Source: a virus. From it: 37,919 nt of DNA. The stretch lies in IMG/VR virus record IMGVR_UViG_3300035188_000700, positions 1 through 37,919 of that record. One strand, written 5' to 3'. Of the stretch, positions 533-35,866 are shown piece by piece; positions within the stretch are counted from its first letter, which is position 1; every line of letters begins with the position of its first letter. The notes under the pieces are model-generated. The model saw only the letters and a program-made list of their open reading frames with translations. It was not told the origin of the DNA and did not search any database. Position numbers and translations under genes: made by a program.

Positions 533-769
533 TTAATTGACTAATTTTTGCAGCAATGCTTTGATTTCGGACACATCATTCTTTACAGTTTCAAGGTCGT
601 TTAATCTATCTTTGATGGTATTTATCTCACCTCTCATTTCGATTTCCGATTGTATAGACCTTTTCTTGTTCAGGTATTCATTAGCTTTGGCATGATTGTT
701 GAGCAAGATGGCACCACTTTTCCTATCTTTTACTAATCCCTCATAGTCTTTTACTTTATCAACTTCCAT
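533..769 (-). CDS. Small coiled-coil protein of the late operon
   Basis: This is a 78-residue charged protein with no Cys or Trp. Residues 30-76 show heptad-like spacing of hydrophobic residues (motifs EIEMRGEINTIKDRLNDLE and VSEIKALLQKL), so a coiled coil is likely. Its ATG shares one base with the stop codon of the upstream gp10-like gene (TAATG), which implies translational coupling. Its stop lies 12 nt before the fibre gene start. Position between a baseplate-type protein and a fibre suggests a role as a fibre adaptor or chaperone, but this is inference. I do not recognise a named family. Confidence 0.75.
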   Translation of the reverse strand: MEVDKVKDYEGLVKDRKSGAILLNNHAKANEYLNKKRSIQSEIEMRGEINTIKDRLNDLETVKNDVSEIKALLQKLVN

Positions 770-3700
770 TAGTAAGCATCCTCTGGTAGTGCAATCGCTC
801 TGAAATCATACACATATGGAATCTTGGAAAATACTGTCCCATTTGAAGCCAGAACAATCTTCATAGCAAACTGATTGAACGTTTTGTATGTTGCCAAATC
901 AGTAGAATATGTAATGTTATTAGAAGTTAGTGATGGTCTATATTCATATTCAATTTGCTCATTGTTTAATGAATATGTGAACTCACTTGTTTTCTGTTCC
1001 ATTCTTTCCCAATTGCGGTTCTCGATTGGCTCAGGATCTAGCCAGTTTCTAACTTTGTAGTAAACTTGGACATTTGCTCCTGGTGGCTTGATAGCAGTCA
1101 AGAATACACGAAGATCACCAGCATCAAAACCATCTCTTAGAGTGATTGTCTTTGTAATGTAGCGAGCAAGTGCTGGACCACCAGAAGAACCTACTTCGGT
1201 GATAACATTGGCGGCCGCATCGGTGCCTGTTCCTGTAATCGTCACTGTGACATCATCGACATAACCTGTTCCAGCATTATCGATCACTATGCTTGTTACT
1301 TCTCCACTTGTCACATTAACAACTGCATAACCATTAGCACCGTAACCCACATTACTTGTGAACTCTACAGCAGCGTTTTGTGTATAACCAGAACCTGCAT
1401 TTGTTACGATTAATTTTTCATCCGACAATCCGGTATTATTGATACGGTTCTCAATAGCAACAAAGTTCTGTCTGTTATGGAATACAACAGGCGAAACTTC
1501 AGGATTAGTTGTTGAGAAATTTATTCTTGTATCAAAAGAATATCCTGTCTTGTTAGATGCCAAAATTACTTTTCTTTCGGTCAAATCGGTTCTTCTGTCA
1601 GGCAAGTAGCTAGTGAATGTGCTTTCGAAGCTACCATTTGCATTGCTGGTAGACTTGTAGCTATAAGCCAACTTGGTGCTTGATACCTCAATAGCATCCG
1701 ATTGTAGCTCAAAAGCATCGTAGACTGTATTTGCTGTGCCAACTCTATTCAATTTCACTTTATCTTCATTGAATCTTGCGATACCATTTGCACGGAATTC
1801 ACACTGATTAATTCTAAACATAATATCTTCATCTTGAACAGCGGTCCAAGTTCTACGATTTTGAGACTTAAATAGTGATCCTGTATAAGGTTGCTTATAA
1901 ACCTTAGCGTCAGCATTCGCTGAACCTAATGGAAGCTGCCCTAATTCAGAAAGATAATAATCATATCCAAAATCATCAGTAATTACAACGAATGAATACT
2001 CAAAGCCCGAGTTCAGATATACCGGACTTGGGAATGTAAATCTGGTGTAAGTTAGTGAGTTGCTCACATTAGGTAGCTCGGAAACTTTAACTTGTGGTGA
2101 TTCCATTAGACATGTGGCACCAGGAATAACAGTATTACTGCTTGGCTGACCGTTGACCATTGGCCTAATTTGCATTTCTAGAGGTAGTGAACCCTTATTC
2201 TTGAAGAACATATCAACAGAATCGACGAAAATGCCATCTTTATGATCAATCGTTGAAACATAGAAAGATTGTGCAATCGGATCATCGTCAACCCATGGCG
2301 TCGATGGCTCTGACCATGGATTATCACAATCACCAAAATATTGAATATTAGATTGGCAGTATGTTTGGCAATCTGATACTGTATAGAAATTTAGATAGTC
2401 CCAGCACTCTGTTATTCCACCACAGATACCAGAGAAACATGACACTGGGCAGTAACATGCAGGAGAAGGTGCCGGAGTTGGAGAAGGTGTTCTCGTTGGT
2501 GTAGGAGAAACCGGCGGCGTTCTCGTAGGAGTTCTCGTTGGAGTTGGTGTCACTGATGGTGTAGGTGTCAATGTTATAGGTGGCGTCCTAGTAGGTGTAG
2601 GTGTCACCGTAGGTGTCATTGTTGGCGTTGGTGTTCTAGTAGGTGTAGCCGAAATAGTAGGCGTCGGCGACCTAGTAGGTGTAATTGTTGCCGTAGGTGT
2701 AATTGTTGGCGTTGGTGTTCTAGTAGGTGTAACCGTCGGTGTTCTAGTAGGCGTTGGTGTTCCAGTAGGTGTCACCGTATTAGTTGGTGTTCTAGTTGGT
2801 GTAGGTGTAACCGTTGCGGTTGGAGTCACCGTTGGAGTAGGTGTTCTCGTTGGTGTAGGAGAAGCCGCAGGCGTTGGCGTAATCGAAGGCGTTACCGTGG
2901 CCGTAGGTGTAATTGTAGGCGTAGGTGTAGGCGTGTTCGTTGCCGTAGGTGTAGGCGTATTTGTTGGTGTTCTAGTTGGCGTAGGTGTTGGTGTATTAGT
3001 TGGTGTAACCGTTGGCGTTGGTGTCACCGTTGGTGTTGGTGTTCTAGTTGGTGTCACCGATGGAGTAGGCGTATTCGTTGCCGTAGGTGTAATAGTAGGT
3101 GTAGGTGTTATTGTTGGCGTTACAGTAATAGTAGGCGTAATTGTTGGTGTCACCGATGGAGTAGGTGTATTCGTTGGTGTAGGTGTCACCGTAATAGGTG
3201 GTGTTTGCGTTGGTGTAACCGTTGGTGTTGGTGTTGGTGTAGGCGTATCCGTGACCGTAGGAGTTGGTGTAGGAGTAACTGTTGCCGTAGGTGTTCTAGT
3301 TGGTGTAACTGTTGGTGTTGGCGTTGGTGTTGGAGTAGGATCAATAACCGCAGCAATCATTGTTGATACGTTGGCTACTATACTTCTCTGAATAATTTGT
3401 GCCTTTGATAGGTCTAAGCCATTAGTCACATAACGATATTCGGCCCAACTTGTGGTCTGTAGCATATCGTTTCTTGGGTTGTCCAATAGCTTGAATATTC
3501 TATCACCAGTTCTGATCTTAAAACTAGACTGAGAAGGATCAGGAATGTGAATGATTCCAGACAGATGCCCAATTTCAGAAACGAAAAGTCTTTGTGTGCT
3601 ATTTGAATACCATAGATTTCTAATATCACCAAGAGAATAAACTAGATTAGCGGTGACATTTGGCAACTCTGGAGAAACTGTAGCAGTTCTTGTAGATGCA

Positions 3701-4359
3701 TTATAGCTTTCAATTTTTGCACTTTGACCTGCTCTCGTACCATTGACAATAGTAATTACGTTACCTCTGTAGTAATCCTCTATTGTCGAGTTGGCATCTG
3801 GTGCCAATACAATGATAGTCCCGTTACTTCCACTTCTAGTTACACCAGAATAATGTATATAATTTTTAACTCTAGATGTGTAAGAAGAATCTCTACTCGT
3901 AATAGTTGAACCGACCGAAACTGAAGATGGATTCTCCCAATCTGAAACATATAATCTGGTGTTACCATCAGTCAATGATGTTTCAACACAAAGAACTGTT
4001 GCGTTTGAGGAACCAATTCTGATAACTTCTCTGTTACCGGCTTTCAAATCTTTAGGAAAAGTATTTGATGTGGTTTCTAGAATATTTGTCTTTTGGATGA
4101 ATTGATTGATAGGTTGATCATCGAAGTAACCATACATTATTCTGAATGGTCTAAGTCTATAAGCAACAAACTCTATTTCTTGACCACGGATATAGGGAAT
4201 GTAAGATGCATTTGTTAGGACAGAGGCAAGTCGATCAACTGTAGTGGTGTTTGTTACAACCGTAGTTGTCTCAAAGTTATATTGAGCGCCTGTAGGAACA
4301 GAGCCTTGTGAAAGCTGTGTTCTGGTCGTAACAATAGATCCTGAAGTGTTAGTTGTCAT
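769..4359 (-). CDS. gp10-like baseplate/virion protein with Pro-Thr stalk (paralogue A)
   Basis: This 1196-residue structural protein has four visible parts. Residues 1-340 are a beta-rich N-domain containing [20 protein letters not shown]. Residues 341-633 are an almost uninterrupted Pro-Thr stalk of TPT, TVTP and TRTP units. Residues about 634-690 form a cassette with eight cysteines starting ACYCPVSC. Residues about 690-1196 are a C-domain ending in ALPEDAY. The neighbour at 4362 has the same plan and near-identical ends, so the two arose by tandem duplication. Position after gp6, gp7, gp8 and the DUF4815 gene matches T4 gp9-gp12, so a baseplate wedge or fibre-attachment role is inferred. 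A GSGYT-type repeat module lies at about 983-1056. I see no signal peptide. The gp10 equivalence is tentative. Confidence 0.65.
2461..3338 (-). repeat. Pro-Thr-encoding degenerate repeat tract, paralogue A
   Basis: About 880 bp made of short units encoding PT, TPT, TVTPT and TRTPT. The plus strand is strongly G/T-rich (GTNGGNGTN units) with very little A or C. The units are degenerate at third positions, so the protein pattern is better conserved than the DNA. The same tract type recurs in the next gene, giving a recombination substrate between the paralogues. Confidence 0.9.
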
Positions 4360-4361
4360 AG

Positions 4362-7300
4362 TTAGTATGCGTCCTCTGGTAGTGCAATTGCTCTTAAATC
4401 ATACACATATGGTACTTTAGATGGAACAGTATCAACCGATGAAAGGGTCACTTTGATTGCATACTGGTTAAACGTTTTATAAGTTGCTAGTTCCGTATTA
4501 TATACAATATTATTAGATGTTAACGATGGTCTATATTCATATTCAATCTGTTCACCGTCTAGAGAGTAAGTGAACTCATTAGTTTGCTGAATCATTCTTC
4601 TCCAAGACAATGATTCGATTGGATTAGGATCGAGCCAGTTTCTAACTTTATAGTAAACCTGGACATTACATCCTGGTGGCTTAACTGCTGTCAAGAATAC
4701 ACGAAGATCACCAGCATCAAACCCTTCAACCAAAGTTACAGTTTTAGAAATATATCGTGTCAGTGATGGGCCGCCAGAAGGTGAGGTTTCAGTTATAACT
4801 TCTACGCCTGCTCCTGAGCCATCTCCAACAATTTCTGCTGATACATTATCAACGTAACCTGTGCCTGCATTATCAACAATAATATTTATAACATTTCCTT
4901 CAAACACTTCCGCATATGCATTAGCACCATATCCAATATCACTTGAAATAACTACGGCTGCGTTTGATGAATAATTTGTTCCTAGGTTCGTTATTGTAAA
5001 CTTATCGTAACTTAGTCCTGTGTTATTTATAATGTTTTCAATGGCAACCAAATTCTGTCTATTCTGGAAAAATATAGGTGATACTTCAGGATTTGAGGTT
5101 GTCATATCCACTTTCATTTTAAATGAATTGGAATCATTCACTGCATTAATAACTTTTCTGTAATCAAGATCGTTTCTCTTGTCAGGTCTGATGAATGTGA
5201 AAGTGTCATCCATTTCACCTGTTGCATTTGCAGTGCCTTTATAGTTATAAACCACTCTCGTCGAAGGCAACTCGATTGCATCTGATTGCATCTCAAATGC
5301 ATCATAATAAACATTAACAGAAGTTTGTTTAGCTAGTTTGATCTTATCTTCTTCTAGTTGCAATGAGCCAATTGTTGGACCAAACTGACACTGATTAATT
5401 CTAAACATAATGTCTTCATCCTGAACGGCAGTCCAAGTTCTTTGATTCTGTGATTTGAATAGTGAACCTAGGAATGGCTGCTTACTGATGTAAGTAGTCC
5501 CATTCAGTACCTGTTTGCCTATTTCAGATAGATAATAGTCATAACCAAAGTCATCGGTAACTACAACAAAAGAATATTCAAATCCTGAGTTGAGATAAAC
5601 TGGGCTCGGGAATGTAAATCTGGTGTAAGTCATTGAGTTACTTACATTTGGTGTTTCTGAAACTACAATATCTTCTGGCTCAAGAATTACGGTAGCACCA
5701 GGTATAATGTCTACGCTGCTTGGCTGACCGTTGACCATCGGTCTAATCTGCATTTCGATAGGCAAAGATTCGCCACGGTTCTTAAAGAACATATCGATAG
5801 AGTGGACGAAAACGCCATCTTTATGGTCAGTTGCCGAGACATAGAAAGATTGTGCAATCGGATCGTCTATGAATCTGCGAACTACAGACCTGCATTGAGT
5901 ATTACAATCTTGCTGTGTATAGAAATATGTCCAACCCTCAAATCTATCTCTAGCGGGCACACGCCACATACCACCTCTTCCTCCTCGACCTGTCCAATAT
6001 TCAACCACTGTTACTGGGCAGTAACAAGCGGGTGTAGGATCAGGAGTTCTCGTAGGTGTTATAGTTGGTGTTGGAGAAGGCGTATTGGTTGCTGTTCTCG
6101 TAGGCGTAGGCGTAGGAGTTAATGTATTAGTTGGCGTATTTGTTGGCGTAATCGTAGGCGTGCGTGTAGGCGTTCTAGTAGGTGTAGGTGTAGTGGTTGC
6201 CGTAACTGTCACAGTTGGAGTGACAGTTGGTGTAACCGGCGCTGTTGGAGTTATTGTAGGCGTAGGTGTGCGTGTCGGTGTTCTAGTTGGTGTAACCGTA
6301 TTAGTTGGCGTCACCGTTGGCGTAGGTGTATTAGTGCCTGTAGGTGTGCGTGTAGGTGTCACCGTTGGTGTAGGCGTATTCGTAGGAGTAGGTGTGCGTG
6401 TAGGAGTAGGAGTAGCTCCTGGTGTTTGTGTTATAGAAGGTGTAGGTGTCACAGTTGGAGTGACAGTAGCCGTAGGCGTGCGTGTAGGTGTCGGTGTCAC
6501 CGTTGGCGTAGGTGTATTAGTTGGTGTCACTGTAATAGTTGGAGTCACCGTTGGTGTTGGTGTTCTAGTTGGTGTAATTGACGGTGTTACAGATACAGTT
6601 AGTGTAGGAGTAGGTGTAACTGTAGGTGTAGGAGTAGGTGTAACCGTTGAAGTCGGAGTAGGACTTGGAGTTACCGTAGTTGTAGGTGTATTAGTTGGTG
6701 TCAGCGTTGGGCTCGGAGTTGTTGTCGGAGTCAACGTTGGCGTAACCGTTGGTGTCGGTGTAAGCGTTGGTGTTACGGTTCTCGTAGGAGATGGTGTTGG
6801 CGTAATCGTTGGTGTTGGTGTAGGCTCTATAACAACAGTTATAGTGTCATCCACATTTTCAATAACTAACTTTTGAACAATCTGCGCCTTGGTTAGATCC
6901 AAACCATTTGTTACATATCGATAATCTGCAATCGTGCTATATTGTTCAATGTCATTTCTATCATTATCGATTAGTCTTAGGATTCTATCACCAGTTCTCC
7001 ATTTGACCGTAGATTGAGAAGGATCTGGAATATGAAATATTCCTGTCAATACACCTCTTGGTGAAACAAACAAACGCTGTGTCGTGTTTGCTGGCCATAG
7101 GCTTTTAATATCACCTAGAGAGTAAGTTGCGCCAGGAGAAATATTAGAAAATGCAGGATTAACTTCTGCTATTCTGGTAGCAGCGTTATAGCTAATGATC
7201 TTGGAACTCTCACCAGCATTTTTACCAGAAACTATGGTAATTACATTTCCTGTGTAGTAATTTTCTATGCTGTTGTTAGCATCAAGGGATAGTAAAATGG

Positions 7301-7868
7301 ATGTAGAGTTGGTACCTGGTCTAACAATACCTGAATAGTGTATATAATTCTTAATGAAGGACTCACGCTTCGATGTATGTGTGTAGACACGCATACCTTC
7401 ATCAACCTGTCTAGGAGATGTTAGATCACTCACATAAATTCTTGTATTGCCATCATTCTCATTTGTTTCGATGGCCAAAACATTTGCATTAGATGAGCCG
7501 GTACTACCAGTAACGGAGAGAACTTCTCTAGCACCTGTTCCGCTCAATAGGCTAACGATGTCAGGATGTCTTGAAGTTAACTCAATAATGTTTGGTCTTT
7601 GAATAAACCTATTAATAGGAATATCATCGAAATAAGCATAGATCATTCTATAGGGTCTTAACCTATAACCTACAAACTCTATCTCCTGACCACGAATATA
7701 AGGAACATATGATATATTTGTTAATGCCGAACCGATGTCTCTTTCTACGGTTGTTGTATTAACAACTATTGAAGAAGATTCAATAGAGAATGTGGCCATC
7801 GGTGGAATAAAATTATTCGCAACCAGTTGTCTTGTAATAGTAGTAGGTAATGATGTATCTGTTGCCAT
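4362..7868 (-). CDS. gp10-like baseplate/virion protein with Pro-Thr stalk (paralogue B)
   Basis: This 1168-residue protein is a paralogue of its downstream neighbour, from which it is separated by 2 nt. It has the same N-domain ([21 protein letters not shown]), a Pro-Thr stalk at residues about 349-614, a shorter cassette with four cysteines (ACYCPV, then DCNTQC) and a C-domain ending ALPEDAY. A GSGYT-like module sits at about 960-1028. The N- and C-domains are clearly alike in the two copies, while the stalk and cassette differ in length and composition. It probably forms an elongated, possibly trimeric part of the wedge periphery, inferred from gene order. The start follows the DUF4815 stop by 15 nt, with AAGGTCC further upstream as a weak ribosome site. 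Confidence 0.65.
6029..6824 (-). repeat. Pro-Thr-encoding degenerate repeat tract, paralogue B
   Basis: About 800 bp of the same kind as the tract in paralogue A, encoding PT, TVTPT, TRTPT and TNTPT units. The order of units differs from copy A, so the tracts have expanded, shrunk or recombined independently after the gene duplication. Confidence 0.9.
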
Positions 7869-32918: not shown

Positions 32919-33143
32919 TTATAAAGGAAGTTGTGAGGTATTAGATTTCTTGAGGAAGTGGAGTTCTTCGGCTTCTAGTTTGATTTTGGATTTGAGAACA
33001 CCCGAGACTAACTTTGCTGCGGTCTCTATCTCGAATCCCGTTTTTTCACAGTAAATAATTATAGCATCTATATAAGAGATATCTTTCATATAAACTAGAT
33101 TCTCGATCTCCATACTGAATTTATTGATATCATCTGTTGTCAT
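32919..33143 (-). CDS. 33: Probable late-transcription coactivator gp33
   Basis: A 74-residue helical protein. EIENLVYMKDISYIDAIIIY then CEKTGFEIETAAKLVSGVLK and SKIKLEAEELHFLKK follow the pattern of short proteins annotated as late promoter transcription accessory protein (gp33) in T4-like marine phages. T4 gp33 links RNA polymerase to the sliding clamp at late promoters. The C-terminal end (SQLPL) could be a clamp-binding tail. It overlaps the next gene upstream by 4 nt (ATGA). Presence near gp32 and gp59 fits T4 gene order. The CTAAATA motifs in the structural half would be its targets. Assignment is from memory of the family, so moderate. Confidence 0.6.
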   Translation of the reverse strand: MTTDDINKFSMEIENLVYMKDISYIDAIIIYCEKTGFEIETAAKLVSGVLKSKIKLEAEELHFLKKSNTSQLPL

Positions 33144-33393: not shown

Positions 33394-34023
33394 TCAAAAA
33401 ATGATTTCTCCGGGTAGGCCTAATTGCATTGAGCCTTTTACAAATACATCAAATGCTAAACAATATCTGGTTGTGTCCGAATTGTTCTGTTCTGTTGAGT
33501 GACCTAGGTAAGAAGGGAAGAATACTAGCATATTGTTTTTAGGTTGGACAAAAAACCTCTCACAGTTGTATATGTTCCAATTCTTGATATTCCATTCAAA
33601 CCATTTTGTCATAGGATCAATATGAGATGGAGGTCTATGAAAGTTTATTCTACTACTGTCATCAGGGACATCAAGATAAAGAACACCGGAAAATATAGAC
33701 TTGGAATGATAATGTTCATCTGCATAATCACCAGGTTCTAGCTTGAGAACCCATGATGTTTTGATAAGGAATTTAAAATTTTGTGTATCTATACCTTGAA
33801 CAGTTTCTATGTAATCGTCTAAAGCTGATTCAATCTGTTCTTTGAGCATTTGACAATGAGGATCATCTAGTACCTTTTTTGCAACCGAATAGGAGCAACA
33901 ACCGTTTCTGACCCTCTCGAAAGGTAAACTATATAGATAATCTTTCAATGTATTATCGATACCGCTAATTGTTGTCGTAGCAACAGGTATCGAAAATAAC
34001 GGGACAATATCAAAAGAGTTCAT
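33394..34023 (-). CDS. Putative 2-oxoglutarate-Fe(II) oxygenase (downstream of tmRNA)
   Basis: A 209-residue protein with the signature of the phage-common 2OG-Fe(II) oxygenase family: WVLKLEPGDYADEHYHSKS, then IFSGVLYLDVPDD with His104 and His106, and MLVFFPSYLGHSTEQN with His175, followed by Arg186 in TTRYCLAFDVF for 2-oxoglutarate binding. Such enzymes hydroxylate proteins, nucleic acids or small molecules; the target is unknown. The ATG lies only about 17 nt past the apparent end of the tmRNA coding piece, with AAGGATT as ribosome site. The gene may therefore be transcribed from the tmRNA promoter. Confidence 0.8.
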   Translation of the reverse strand: MNSFDIVPLFSIPVATTTISGIDNTLKDYLYSLPFERVRNGCCSYSVAKKVLDDPHCQMLKEQIESALDDYIETVQGIDTQNFKFLIKTSWVLKLEPGDYADEHYHSKSIFSGVLYLDVPDDSSRINFHRPPSHIDPMTKWFEWNIKNWNIYNCERFFVQPKNNMLVFFPSYLGHSTEQNNSDTTRYCLAFDVFVKGSMQLGLPGEIIF

Positions 34024-34043
34024 AGTAATCCTTATGCTAAGTT

Positions 34044-34072
34044 GCCACCATTTCTGTTTCTAGGCTGGTGGC
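34044..34072 (-). other. Hairpin near 3' end of tmRNA coding piece
   Basis: GCCACCA (34066-34072) and TGGTGGC (34044-34050) form a 7-bp stem with a 15-nt loop, 11 nt after the tag stop codon, comparable with helix P5 in other tmRNAs. Confidence 0.65.
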
Positions 34073-34083
34073 CCACCCACAGG

Positions 34084-34128
34084 TTATGCTGCTAGAGCAA
34101 AAGCCTCATATGCATTGTTGTCGTTTGC
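34084..34128 (-). other. tmRNA tag-peptide reading frame
   Basis: The resume codon GCA at 34126-34128 is followed by a frame encoding ANDNNAYEAFALAA and TAA. Start ANDN is typical of alphaproteobacterial tags, and the LAA end is the ClpXP-type degradation signal. It is preceded by AAATCGTAAAT, similar to the region before other resume codons. Confidence 0.93.
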
Positions 34129-34191
34129 ATTTACGATTTGCTTTCGATCTCCTTACGACCTTACTGAATCCCGTCGAACCTGTTCGCCCCC

Positions 34192-34284
34192 ATCAAAGAT
34201 ACACTGTTGGACCCTCTGTCTTGTTCCAACTTTTCTCATAAAGAGTTGCGGGTTCCTATCTTTTCAGTCTAGGCAGTGTATCTA
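34192..34284 (-). other. Intervening segment of tmRNA precursor
   Basis: 93 nt lie between the CCA end and the 5' end of the coding piece. The segment is closed by a perfect 10-bp helix (34274-34283 with 34197-34206, AGATACACTG and its complement). This would hold the two ends of the acceptor stem together until processing removes it. Confidence 0.8.
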
Positions 34285-34357
34285 TGGTGGAGGCGGTGGG
34301 AATCGCACCCACGTCCAAGAAACCTATATTTCGTCTCTCAACGACCTAAGCATAGTA

Positions 34358-34386
34358 TTTATAGCACATATGGTCTTTCTTGTCAA
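34358..34386 (-). promoter_or_regulatory. Sigma70-type promoter of the tmRNA
   Basis: TTGACA (34381-34386), a 17-nt spacer and TATAAA (34358-34363), with TGC directly before the -10 (extended -10). The predicted start at about 34351 is the 5' end of the acceptor piece. The -35 box begins 5 nt after the stop of the upstream oxygenase gene. Confidence 0.88.
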
Positions 34387-34391
34387 GTTTT

Positions 34392-34973
34392 TTAAATGGA
34401 ATAATAAGAAAACCAACCGGTATAGATATACTTTTCCTGTGTTGGTGAGGCCACGCCTCTATGTGTGAAGGTCCAATCCGTTGGCCATATGATAGTTAGT
34501 CCTTTCTCAGGTCTTATTTTCAATTTCTGATGGTAAAATTCCGTCTCACCTGCATCGGTAACGTCGTTCAAATAGGTAATGAAAACTAGGTGTCGAGAAG
34601 AATTAGGCTGGACGGATGTGGATCTTTCACAATGCCAAGCATGATAACCGGCCTTTGGTGCATAATATTGGATATTTCCTCTTTCTATAGTTTTCCAAGG
34701 GAAACCACAATTGCATCTAGGGTATTTTGTAATGTAAAGATCAACACATTTCTGTAGTTCCGAAAAATATTTTTCTGATATGATATCATCATCTATGCAG
34801 GCATCGATACTATCTTTTATAGTTTTATCAACTCTTTTTCCAGCACCAGTCATTCCTTCCCATTTGTTTGGATAAGATTTATGGTACTCAATGAGTGCAT
34901 CACATACGTCACCATCAATGTACCAACCACATATAAAATTATCCAATTGGTTTATAAAATGTTCTCTCAACAT
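34392..34973 (-). CDS. Putative 2-oxoglutarate-Fe(II) oxygenase (upstream of tmRNA)
   Basis: A 193-residue protein with a prolyl-4-hydroxylase-like layout: GYHAWHCERS gives His114-x-Glu116, RHLVFITYLNDVTDAGETEF follows as in P4H-type enzymes, and FTHRGVASPTQEKYIYTGWF gives His171 and Lys181. Glu in place of Asp in the first metal motif is tolerated in some members of the superfamily. An N-terminal Cys-containing region (CNCGFPW) precedes the catalytic core. The start follows a 27-codon ORF directly (TAAATG) and has no good ribosome site of its own, so it may need translational coupling. It is unrelated in detail to the other oxygenase at 33394. Substrate unknown. Confidence 0.78.
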   Translation of the reverse strand: MLREHFINQLDNFICGWYIDGDVCDALIEYHKSYPNKWEGMTGAGKRVDKTIKDSIDACIDDDIISEKYFSELQKCVDLYITKYPRCNCGFPWKTIERGNIQYYAPKAGYHAWHCERSTSVQPNSSRHLVFITYLNDVTDAGETEFYHQKLKIRPEKGLTIIWPTDWTFTHRGVASPTQEKYIYTGWFSYYSI

Positions 34974-35057: not shown

Positions 35058-35151
35058 CCCATACAACGCACTTACCGACGGTCGCCAAAACGCAACCAGA
35101 CAAACCCAAACTAAGAAACACCAATGCTACTGCTAGATATACTTTTCTCAT
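35032..35151 (-). CDS. Small phage lipoprotein, 39 aa
   Basis: The ATG at 35151 overlaps the exonuclease stop (ATGA). The 39-residue product has a classical lipoprotein signal: MRK, a hydrophobic stretch YLAVALVFLSLGL and lipobox LSGC at 17-20. The predicted mature part is only 20 residues, with three cysteines (Cys20 plus two). Small phage lipoproteins can act as outer spanins or in superinfection exclusion; neither is shown here, and no inner spanin partner is visible next to it. Confidence 0.7.
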   Translation of the reverse strand: MRKVYLAVALVFLSLGLSGCVLATVGKCVVWDATNKPCQ

Positions 35152-35825
35152 AGTCCTGTCTCCTCTCTGAACTGTTTTATTTTTCGTGCTAATTCAGGCA
35201 TATAATCGTTACGATCTTTCACGAATACTTGAGGTTGTTCGTGGTCAACCGATATCAGCACCACAATCTGCTTACACCTGATACTTGTCATTTCTTCATA
35301 CATCAAAGAATAACAAGTGCATTGTTCGAAGTAGCTTAGAATCCAATCTTCTCTCTTAGGCTTCAATGATGTTTTAAAATCAATAATAGAAGGAACACCA
35401 TCAAACTCAGCAATACAGTCCACTTGACCAGCGAGACCAAGAGTTTCAGAGTATAGCATAGTTTCCAGATAGTGAACATTGTCAAGTCTATCAAGTATAG
35501 GAACAAACTGATTGAAAGCCTGTCTCATATCAGGCATGATGTCAGGATCTTTTAAGAAGTTTTCCTGGTTACCGATATAAGATTCCATAATAGAATGAAA
35601 TTTTGTACCTCTTCGGCTTGCTCGTCCTGAAATTTTGTTCGCTTCTTCTTCCCCGACTTTCTTTCTCCACTTTTGAATGGAGTCACCTTTGAAATGAGAT
35701 AGAAAAGTAGTAACCGACGGGAGTTTAACACCATTTGGCGAGACATAATATCGTTTTCCATTATGTTCTTCTCTTTTCAGGTTCACTAACACTGGGTCAT
35801 TGTTTATATGCTTAAAGGTTTTCAT
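35148..35825 (-). CDS. RecB/Cas4-like PD-(D/E)XK exonuclease
   Basis: A 225-residue nuclease. I start it at the ATG at 35825 (MKTFKH); a TTG two codons earlier is possible but less likely. The full RecB-family motif set is visible: RRGTKFHSIMES (His77, Glu81), GLAGQVDCIAEF (Asp136), PSIIDFKTSLK (Asp149, Lys151) and the Gln168-x3-Tyr172 motif in YFEQCTCYSL. Such enzymes degrade or resect DNA in phage recombination and replication. The ATG overlaps the stop of a 13-codon minigene (TAATG) that carries the ribosome site. The promoter at 35883-35911 lies just upstream. Four iron-sulfur cysteines, as in Cas4, are not evident. Confidence 0.85.
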   Translation of the reverse strand: MKTFKHINNDPVLVNLKREEHNGKRYYVSPNGVKLPSVTTFLSHFKGDSIQKWRKKVGEEEANKISGRASRRGTKFHSIMESYIGNQENFLKDPDIMPDMRQAFNQFVPILDRLDNVHYLETMLYSETLGLAGQVDCIAEFDGVPSIIDFKTSLKPKREDWILSYFEQCTCYSLMYEEMTSIRCKQIVVLISVDHEQPQVFVKDRNDYMPELARKIKQFREETGL

Positions 35826-35866
35826 TAGCAACCGACATCAAAATCTTCATCATCTGTTTCTTCCAT
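35825..35866 (-). CDS. 13-codon acidic minigene before exonuclease
   Basis: ATG at 35866 with AGAGGG upstream encodes MEETDDEDFDVGC and ends in a TAA that overlaps the exonuclease ATG. It holds the only convincing ribosome site for the pair, so it may be a coupling leader peptide. Could be chance, but the arrangement is neat. Confidence 0.4.
   Translation of the reverse strand: MEETDDEDFDVGC

Follow-up and report, generated by a model that had tools for sequence, protein, structure and literature searches.

Two-piece tmRNAs are an already known kind of RNA in phages: a 2022 survey of phage genomes lists 53, of which 50 are marine or aquatic, and postulates their early expression (PMC9004378). 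The cultured Pelagibacter phage Mosig EXVC030M (MT647606), a T4-like phage, carries an annotated permuted SsrA gene preceded by a PD-(D/E)XK nuclease gene and followed by gp33 and gp59. In the cultured Methylophilales phage Melnitz (MZ577095; PMC9004378), which infects a gammaproteobacterium (OM43), an alpha-type SsrA gene lies in the same slot, after PhoH and before a transcription coactivator; it has a TTGACA-17-TGGTATAAATA promoter, a 142-nt segment with a closing helix and a glutamine riboswitch at its 3' side. The alphaproteobacterial two-piece tmRNAs (RF01849, e.g. SAR11 ssrA) are likewise permuted, with a G3-U70 pair and a tag of the form AN...AA (ANESYALAA or ANESYAIAA in SAR11). Finally, one-piece tmRNA genes with a group I intron and LAGLIDADG have been described, in which a homing endonuclease gene occupies a non-mature part (PMC11915505).

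Here we analyse a gene of this kind on a 37,919-nt stretch of DNA from an IMG/VR virus record (the window). It adds one member to the known phage group, shares its slot with Mosig and Melnitz, and resembles Melnitz in promoter and closing helix, while lacking the riboswitch. It differs from Mosig, which has a 44-nt segment and the ARAGORN tag GEDNFALAA, from SAR11 in its tag, and from the intron-bearing genes in that it contains no endonuclease gene. The first-pass annotation had confined permuted tmRNAs to a few bacterial lineages; with Mosig, Melnitz and the other published phage cases, novelty of a phage-borne one is not supported. What comparison with relatives adds is a spacer that appears exchangeable and sometimes protein-coding, together with a predicted early-and-late promoter.

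Anatomy of the tmRNA locus

The minus strand of the window holds, at about 34351-34040, a circularly permuted two-piece tmRNA gene on a T4-like phage contig (Table 1). The first-pass annotation had placed it, with its promoter, at 34040-34386, which is correct to within a few bases. ARAGORN detects a permuted tmRNA at 34377..33993 (-) with the tag ANDNNAYEAFALAA. Two Rfam covariance models agree, both matched as full models on the same strand: tmRNA_permuted (RF04321) at 34346..34084 with 95.2 bits (E 2e-17, gathering 47), and alpha_tmRNA (RF01849), the check that had been suggested at the outset, at 34390..34040 with 79.6 bits (E 3.5e-20, gathering 50). The two-piece order is present, the acceptor piece with its CCA preceding the coding piece. 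The acceptor stem GGGGGCG/CGCCUCC forms 7/7 pairs including G3-U70, the T-arm is visible, and the tag frame runs from a GCA resume codon to a TAA stop with a degradation-type end. Folding of the unit lies 3.8 sd below that of shuffled sequences and beats 100/100 shuffles. P2 and the pseudoknot are predicted less securely than the acceptor stem and T-arm; the 3' hairpin combines a 6-bp stem with a weak second stem, and its sequence differs in relatives, pairing being possible in some of them. No riboswitch was found at E<=5 between 33900 and 34500, and no terminator was found 3' of the tmRNA on the same strand.

Table 1. Features of the tmRNA locus and its neighbours in the window, and protein-coding inserts in related loci (positions in related loci carry the locus name)
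Feature	Position	Strand	Remarks
PD-(D/E)XK exonuclease gene	35148..35831	-	Upstream marker of slot
2OG-Fe(II) oxygenase gene	34392..34973	-	Directly upstream; only in some relatives
-35 element TTGACA	34381..34386	-	Sequence; motif conserved in relatives
Spacer, 17 nt	Between -35 and extended -10	-	Sequence
Extended -10 TGCTATAAATA (TGC+TATAAATA)	34356..34366; octamer 34363-34356	-	Also T4-type late-promoter motif
Acceptor (3') piece, ~67 nt	34285..34351	-	Sequence, ARAGORN, Rfam; 5' end predicted from promoter
T-arm, 5 bp, loop UGCGAUU	34312-34296	-	Sequence
Acceptor 3' strand CGCCUCC	34295-34289	-	Followed by A73
Encoded CCA	34287-34285	-	Sequence
Intervening segment, 93 nt	34192..34284	-	No conserved protein gene; identical in L277 and L223
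Closing helix, perfect 10 bp	34283-34274 with 34206-34197	-	Closes intervening segment
Coding (5') piece, ~152 nt	34040..34191	-	G1 (GGGGGCG at 34191) to end of 3' hairpin
GGUUCGAC	34180-34173	-	In coding piece; sequence
Tag reading frame ANDNNAYEAFALAA	34084..34128	-	Resume codon GCA at 34128, TAA 34086-34084; tag shared with relatives
Pseudoknot-like 3' hairpin	34044..34079	-	GCCACC/GGUGGC and weak second stem UGGGU/GCCUA; partly supported by relatives
2OG-Fe(II) oxygenase gene	33394..34023	-	Directly downstream
gp33-like late-transcription coactivator gene	32919..33143	-	Downstream marker of slot
HNH homing-endonuclease-like genes	L228:6727-7161; L251:6766-7236		Within tmRNA segments
Hydrophobic-peptide loci	L010, L037, L044, L045, L051, L067, L074, L083, L090, L096, L099, L116

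The 5' hairpin that RF01849 places on the bacterial acceptor piece is present in the bacterial loci and missing in the window and its phage relatives; we therefore term the window tmRNA 'alpha-type-like' and do not file it as a bacterial alphaproteobacterial tmRNA. Its identity to the nearest phage relative is 95%, against 64% at most for any bacterial tmRNA in the comparison, a set drawn from one pattern and dominated by SAR11. An alphaproteobacterial host had initially been deduced from the tmRNA class. These identities and the missing hairpin speak against that deduction, and the class cannot name the host because Melnitz, whose tmRNA in this slot is of alpha type, infects a gammaproteobacterium.

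Conservation among phage relatives

An independent pattern scan of IMG/VR returned at least 120 viral stretches. Among the matches listed, 118 of 120 keep an acceptor strand with 7/7 pairs, with matched changes at stem positions 5 and 6: the variants GGGGGCG, GGGGGUG, GGGGCUG, GGGGUCG and GGGGAUG are each matched by the opposite strand. Of the remaining two loci, one has a 499-nt segment and the other runs off the end of its contig. In closer relatives, matched changes were also seen at positions 4 and 7 (GGGCCGG, GGGCCAG, GGGGCAG and GGGGACG, all fully paired). Because homologues keep the acceptor pairing through matched changes, a chance origin of the tmRNA features is excluded.

The tags of the 120 listed loci vary internally, but all start with AND and end with AA, and the resume codon, an intact tag and the stop are kept in every one. 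This bears on whether the RNA might be a tmRNA-like decoy, binding host SmpB or AlaRS and blocking host ribosome rescue instead of performing it. There is a documented precedent for blocked rescue in a tag-less, tRNA-like piece of a mycobacteriophage-type tmRNA: RNA consisting of the tRNA domain alone, as in phage DS6A, inhibits tmRNA (PMC11915505, PMC4131195). A decoy, however, needs no tag, and with the tag frame so uniformly intact we hold this explanation to be quite improbable. The window locus is instead very likely to be a working phage-encoded two-piece tmRNA.

A fixed slot among phage genes

The contig encodes gp32, gp59, PhoH, two 2OG-Fe oxygenases, a gp33-type late regulator and an exonuclease, and related contigs reach 164 kb, so that the phage linkage assumed in the first reading holds. 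The tmRNA gene occupies a fixed slot in the order PhoH, PD-(D/E)XK exonuclease, tmRNA, gp33, gp59. At least one of these four neighbours was seen at 118 of the 138 phage loci examined; the exonuclease lay upstream on the same strand in 91/91 cases and gp33 downstream in 100/100. Among close-relative contigs with both flanks, which were fetched with the window's exonuclease, the slot was filled in 45/45: 34 of the tmRNAs were detected by ARAGORN and the other 11 by covariance models or from the sequence itself. Empty slots in these relatives were thereby ruled out, since the loci missed by ARAGORN hold tmRNAs, the segment reaching about 490 nt in some. Cyanophage S-ShM2 leaves no space for a tmRNA, its exonuclease gene overlapping the gp33 gene. 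A constant link between tmRNA and 2OG-oxygenase was also considered and dismissed, as the oxygenases occur in only some relatives; those with the upstream oxygenase and the tmRNA together include a 164-kb contig.

The tmRNA gene is co-inherited with its slot neighbours. Mantel correlations between tmRNA and flanking-protein distances were 0.74 for the exonuclease, 0.73 for PhoH, 0.70 for gp33 and 0.58 for gp59, and for none of the four did any of 2000 permutations reach as high a value. With the T4-like genes on the contig, this co-inheritance rules out a host-chromosome origin. It bears equally on a recent capture of a host ssrA copy without selected function, which might be envisaged since phages do acquire host RNA genes and the window RNA matches bacterial covariance models. 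Co-inheritance and the fixed slot, the distance from the bacterial tmRNAs compared and the conservation of acceptor stem and tag argue strongly against such a capture, which we regard as very improbable indeed.

Other features were observed in these contigs. Two adjacent proteins of about 1,200 aa, encoded at 769-4359 and 4362-7868 (-) in the structural gene region of the window, are apparent paralogues, both containing a long linker of Thr-Pro repeats. Marine T4-like phages L216, L217 and L002 carry manA RNA motifs close to gp33/gp59. L325 (PBDU01000009.1), titled as a Euryarchaeota MAG, also has a tmRNA of phage type, with a promoter region of the TATAAA type; it is probably a phage contig that was assigned to an archaeal MAG during binning.

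A promoter with a late-type -10 element

The extended -10 promoter announced ahead of the tmRNA can be read directly from the sequence, as TTGACA-17-TGC+TATAAATA, and the window and most relatives share the form TTGACA-17-TGnTATAAATA. A promoter-like pair is present in 91 of 97 non-redundant phage loci, with a 17-nt spacer in 82, TG before the -10 in 58, and TATAAATA as the -10 octamer in 61 (TATATATA in 11); these counts come from related loci, which are not independent. The octamer TATAAATA was found at 62/78 tmRNA promoters, against 8/151 TTGAC/TATA sites of the same spacing elsewhere in the same contigs, whereas the bacterial ssrA loci compared have mostly TATATT or TATAAT as -10. In its last base the hexamer TATAAA departs from the sigma-70 consensus, which has T there, and it was not listed by a scan of the sequence. 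The composite promoter was not detected in Mosig, and in several close relatives the -10 box is of the TATAAT type.

TATAAATA is the late-promoter motif of T4 and is similar to NATAAATA of cyanophages, for some genes of which overlapping early and late promoters have been proposed (PMC2984593). Within the window its occurrence as a late promoter was at chance level (4 vs 3.4 expected), so enrichment was tested in Mosig instead, where the motif lies at most 90 nt upstream of 14/126 genes, prohead, neck and baseplate genes included, with 1.1 expected. Since the -10 element matches the phage late-promoter motif, the tmRNA is predicted to be transcribed both early and late.

This predicted timing also touches on the suggestion made for Melnitz that the tmRNA chiefly tags host proteins early, for amino-acid recycling by the phage (PMC9004378). 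The degradation-type tag and the consensus -35 would suit such a role; the -10, however, is of late type in most relatives, and a tmRNA acts on stalled ribosomes and does not select host proteins. We therefore judge tagging of host proteins improbable as the main function, although such tagging can accompany ribosome rescue as a by-product.

The intervening segment

The segment between the two pieces has a median length of 78 nt in these phages, against 12 nt in the set of bacterial genes compared. Its ends pair with one another: over 84 genes the mean duplex energy was -13.7 kcal/mol within a gene and -5.2 kcal/mol with ends swapped between genes, and the closing duplex reached -8 kcal/mol or below in 83 of them. 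TGAT stands right before the coding piece in 81/110 segments, and the interiors are wholly different even between close relatives. Yet L277 and L223, with other promoter regions and other tags, share the complete 93-nt segment of the window without a single difference; parts of the tmRNA gene therefore recombine, making it a mosaic gene. The segment thus appears to be an exchangeable module, swapped between phages and closed by a covarying helix. In L277 and L223 the acceptor piece is near-identical to that of the window and the tag half differs (AANDNVPFDFALAA); the acceptor end of L223 reads ATCA, not ACCA. The segment of L240 contains two T-arm-like hairpins, GGTGGTTCGATTCCACC and GAGGTTCGATTCCTC.

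No protein gene was found in the window's own segment; an ATG frame that begins there continues through the coding piece, without an obvious ribosome-binding site. Protein-coding frames do occur in relatives: 17 of 110 non-redundant segments contain one that spans 30 codons or more and has a Shine-Dalgarno sequence, with 1.0 expected after shuffling. A frame of 144-158 aa lies inside the segment of L228, L229 and L231 (one common arrangement on three contigs), of L249 and L251-L253, and of L411 and L412-L414, with acceptor stem and tag intact around it. The first 50 residues of the protein match phrog_655 'homing endonuclease' (E 7e-13), and there is a weak match, under the cut-off, to Pfam HNH; this cargo is likely an HNH-like homing endonuclease. 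Its pN of 0.22-0.31 compares with a pS of 0.56-0.74. In 12 further loci, with segments of 159-183 nt, a hydrophobic peptide of 38-44 aa (MKNPLVKKISVVMFKLYI...) is encoded, preceded by AAAGGAGA, which supplies a Shine-Dalgarno directly 3' of CCA, and by a short overlapping frame; its stop codon lies 1 nt before the coding piece in 12/12 loci, and its pN/pS is 0.30. These ratios indicate that both kinds of segment gene are under purifying selection. Further frames of 43-120 aa were noticed inside the segments of L220 (tmRNA 5863-6395), L077, L084, L020 and L019.

In isolate phages, only partial relatives of the endonuclease were found, all in Synechococcus phages; the hydrophobic peptide was absent from those searched and the 69-aa frame of L220 had no match among them. 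A literature search of limited extent returned no report of protein-gene cargo in a tmRNA spacer. The relatives with this cargo resemble the one-piece genes of PMC11915505 in bearing a homing endonuclease gene in a non-mature part, but no intron is involved: the HNH-like gene lies in the permutation spacer and would be removed by tRNA-type processing.

We think it rather likely that the tmRNA spacer is an exchangeable cargo site in this group of phages. The covarying helix and the usual TGAT before G1 would frame inserts that can replace one another, some being translated genes for the HNH homing-endonuclease-like protein or the conserved hydrophobic peptide; a single transcript would give rise to the tmRNA and, from the excised part, to a mini-mRNA. 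The window insert would then be a non-coding one, shared by recombination with relatives of different tag, and homing may drive the exchange.

Discussion

The window tmRNA is real and probably functional, and its features suggest how it might work. Host RNA polymerase would transcribe the precursor from TTGACA-17-TGnTATAAATA, and the gp55/gp33-programmed polymerase probably transcribes it late as well, because the -10 doubles as a T4-type late promoter. RNase P and 3'-end nucleases would excise the intervening segment while the closing helix keeps the two acceptor strands together, giving base-paired acceptor and coding RNAs of about 67 and 152 nt. Host AlaRS would charge the molecule via G3-U70. 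Seven related records, those of 164 and 162 kb included, yielded no SmpB, so that host SmpB would be used to bring the tmRNA to ribosomes stalled on broken messages, where the tag would mark the stalled peptides for host proteases. The phage would probably benefit by keeping ribosomes free while mRNAs get cut in infection, and that it may control ribosome rescue during this time is a reasonable inference.

If the cargo reading of the spacer is true, it would represent a new way of packing protein genes within a structural RNA gene and would offer a test case for intron-less homing. The single slot kept across many T4-like contigs, together with a promoter predicted to act early and late, speaks for a benefit of ribosome rescue to the phage during the whole of infection.
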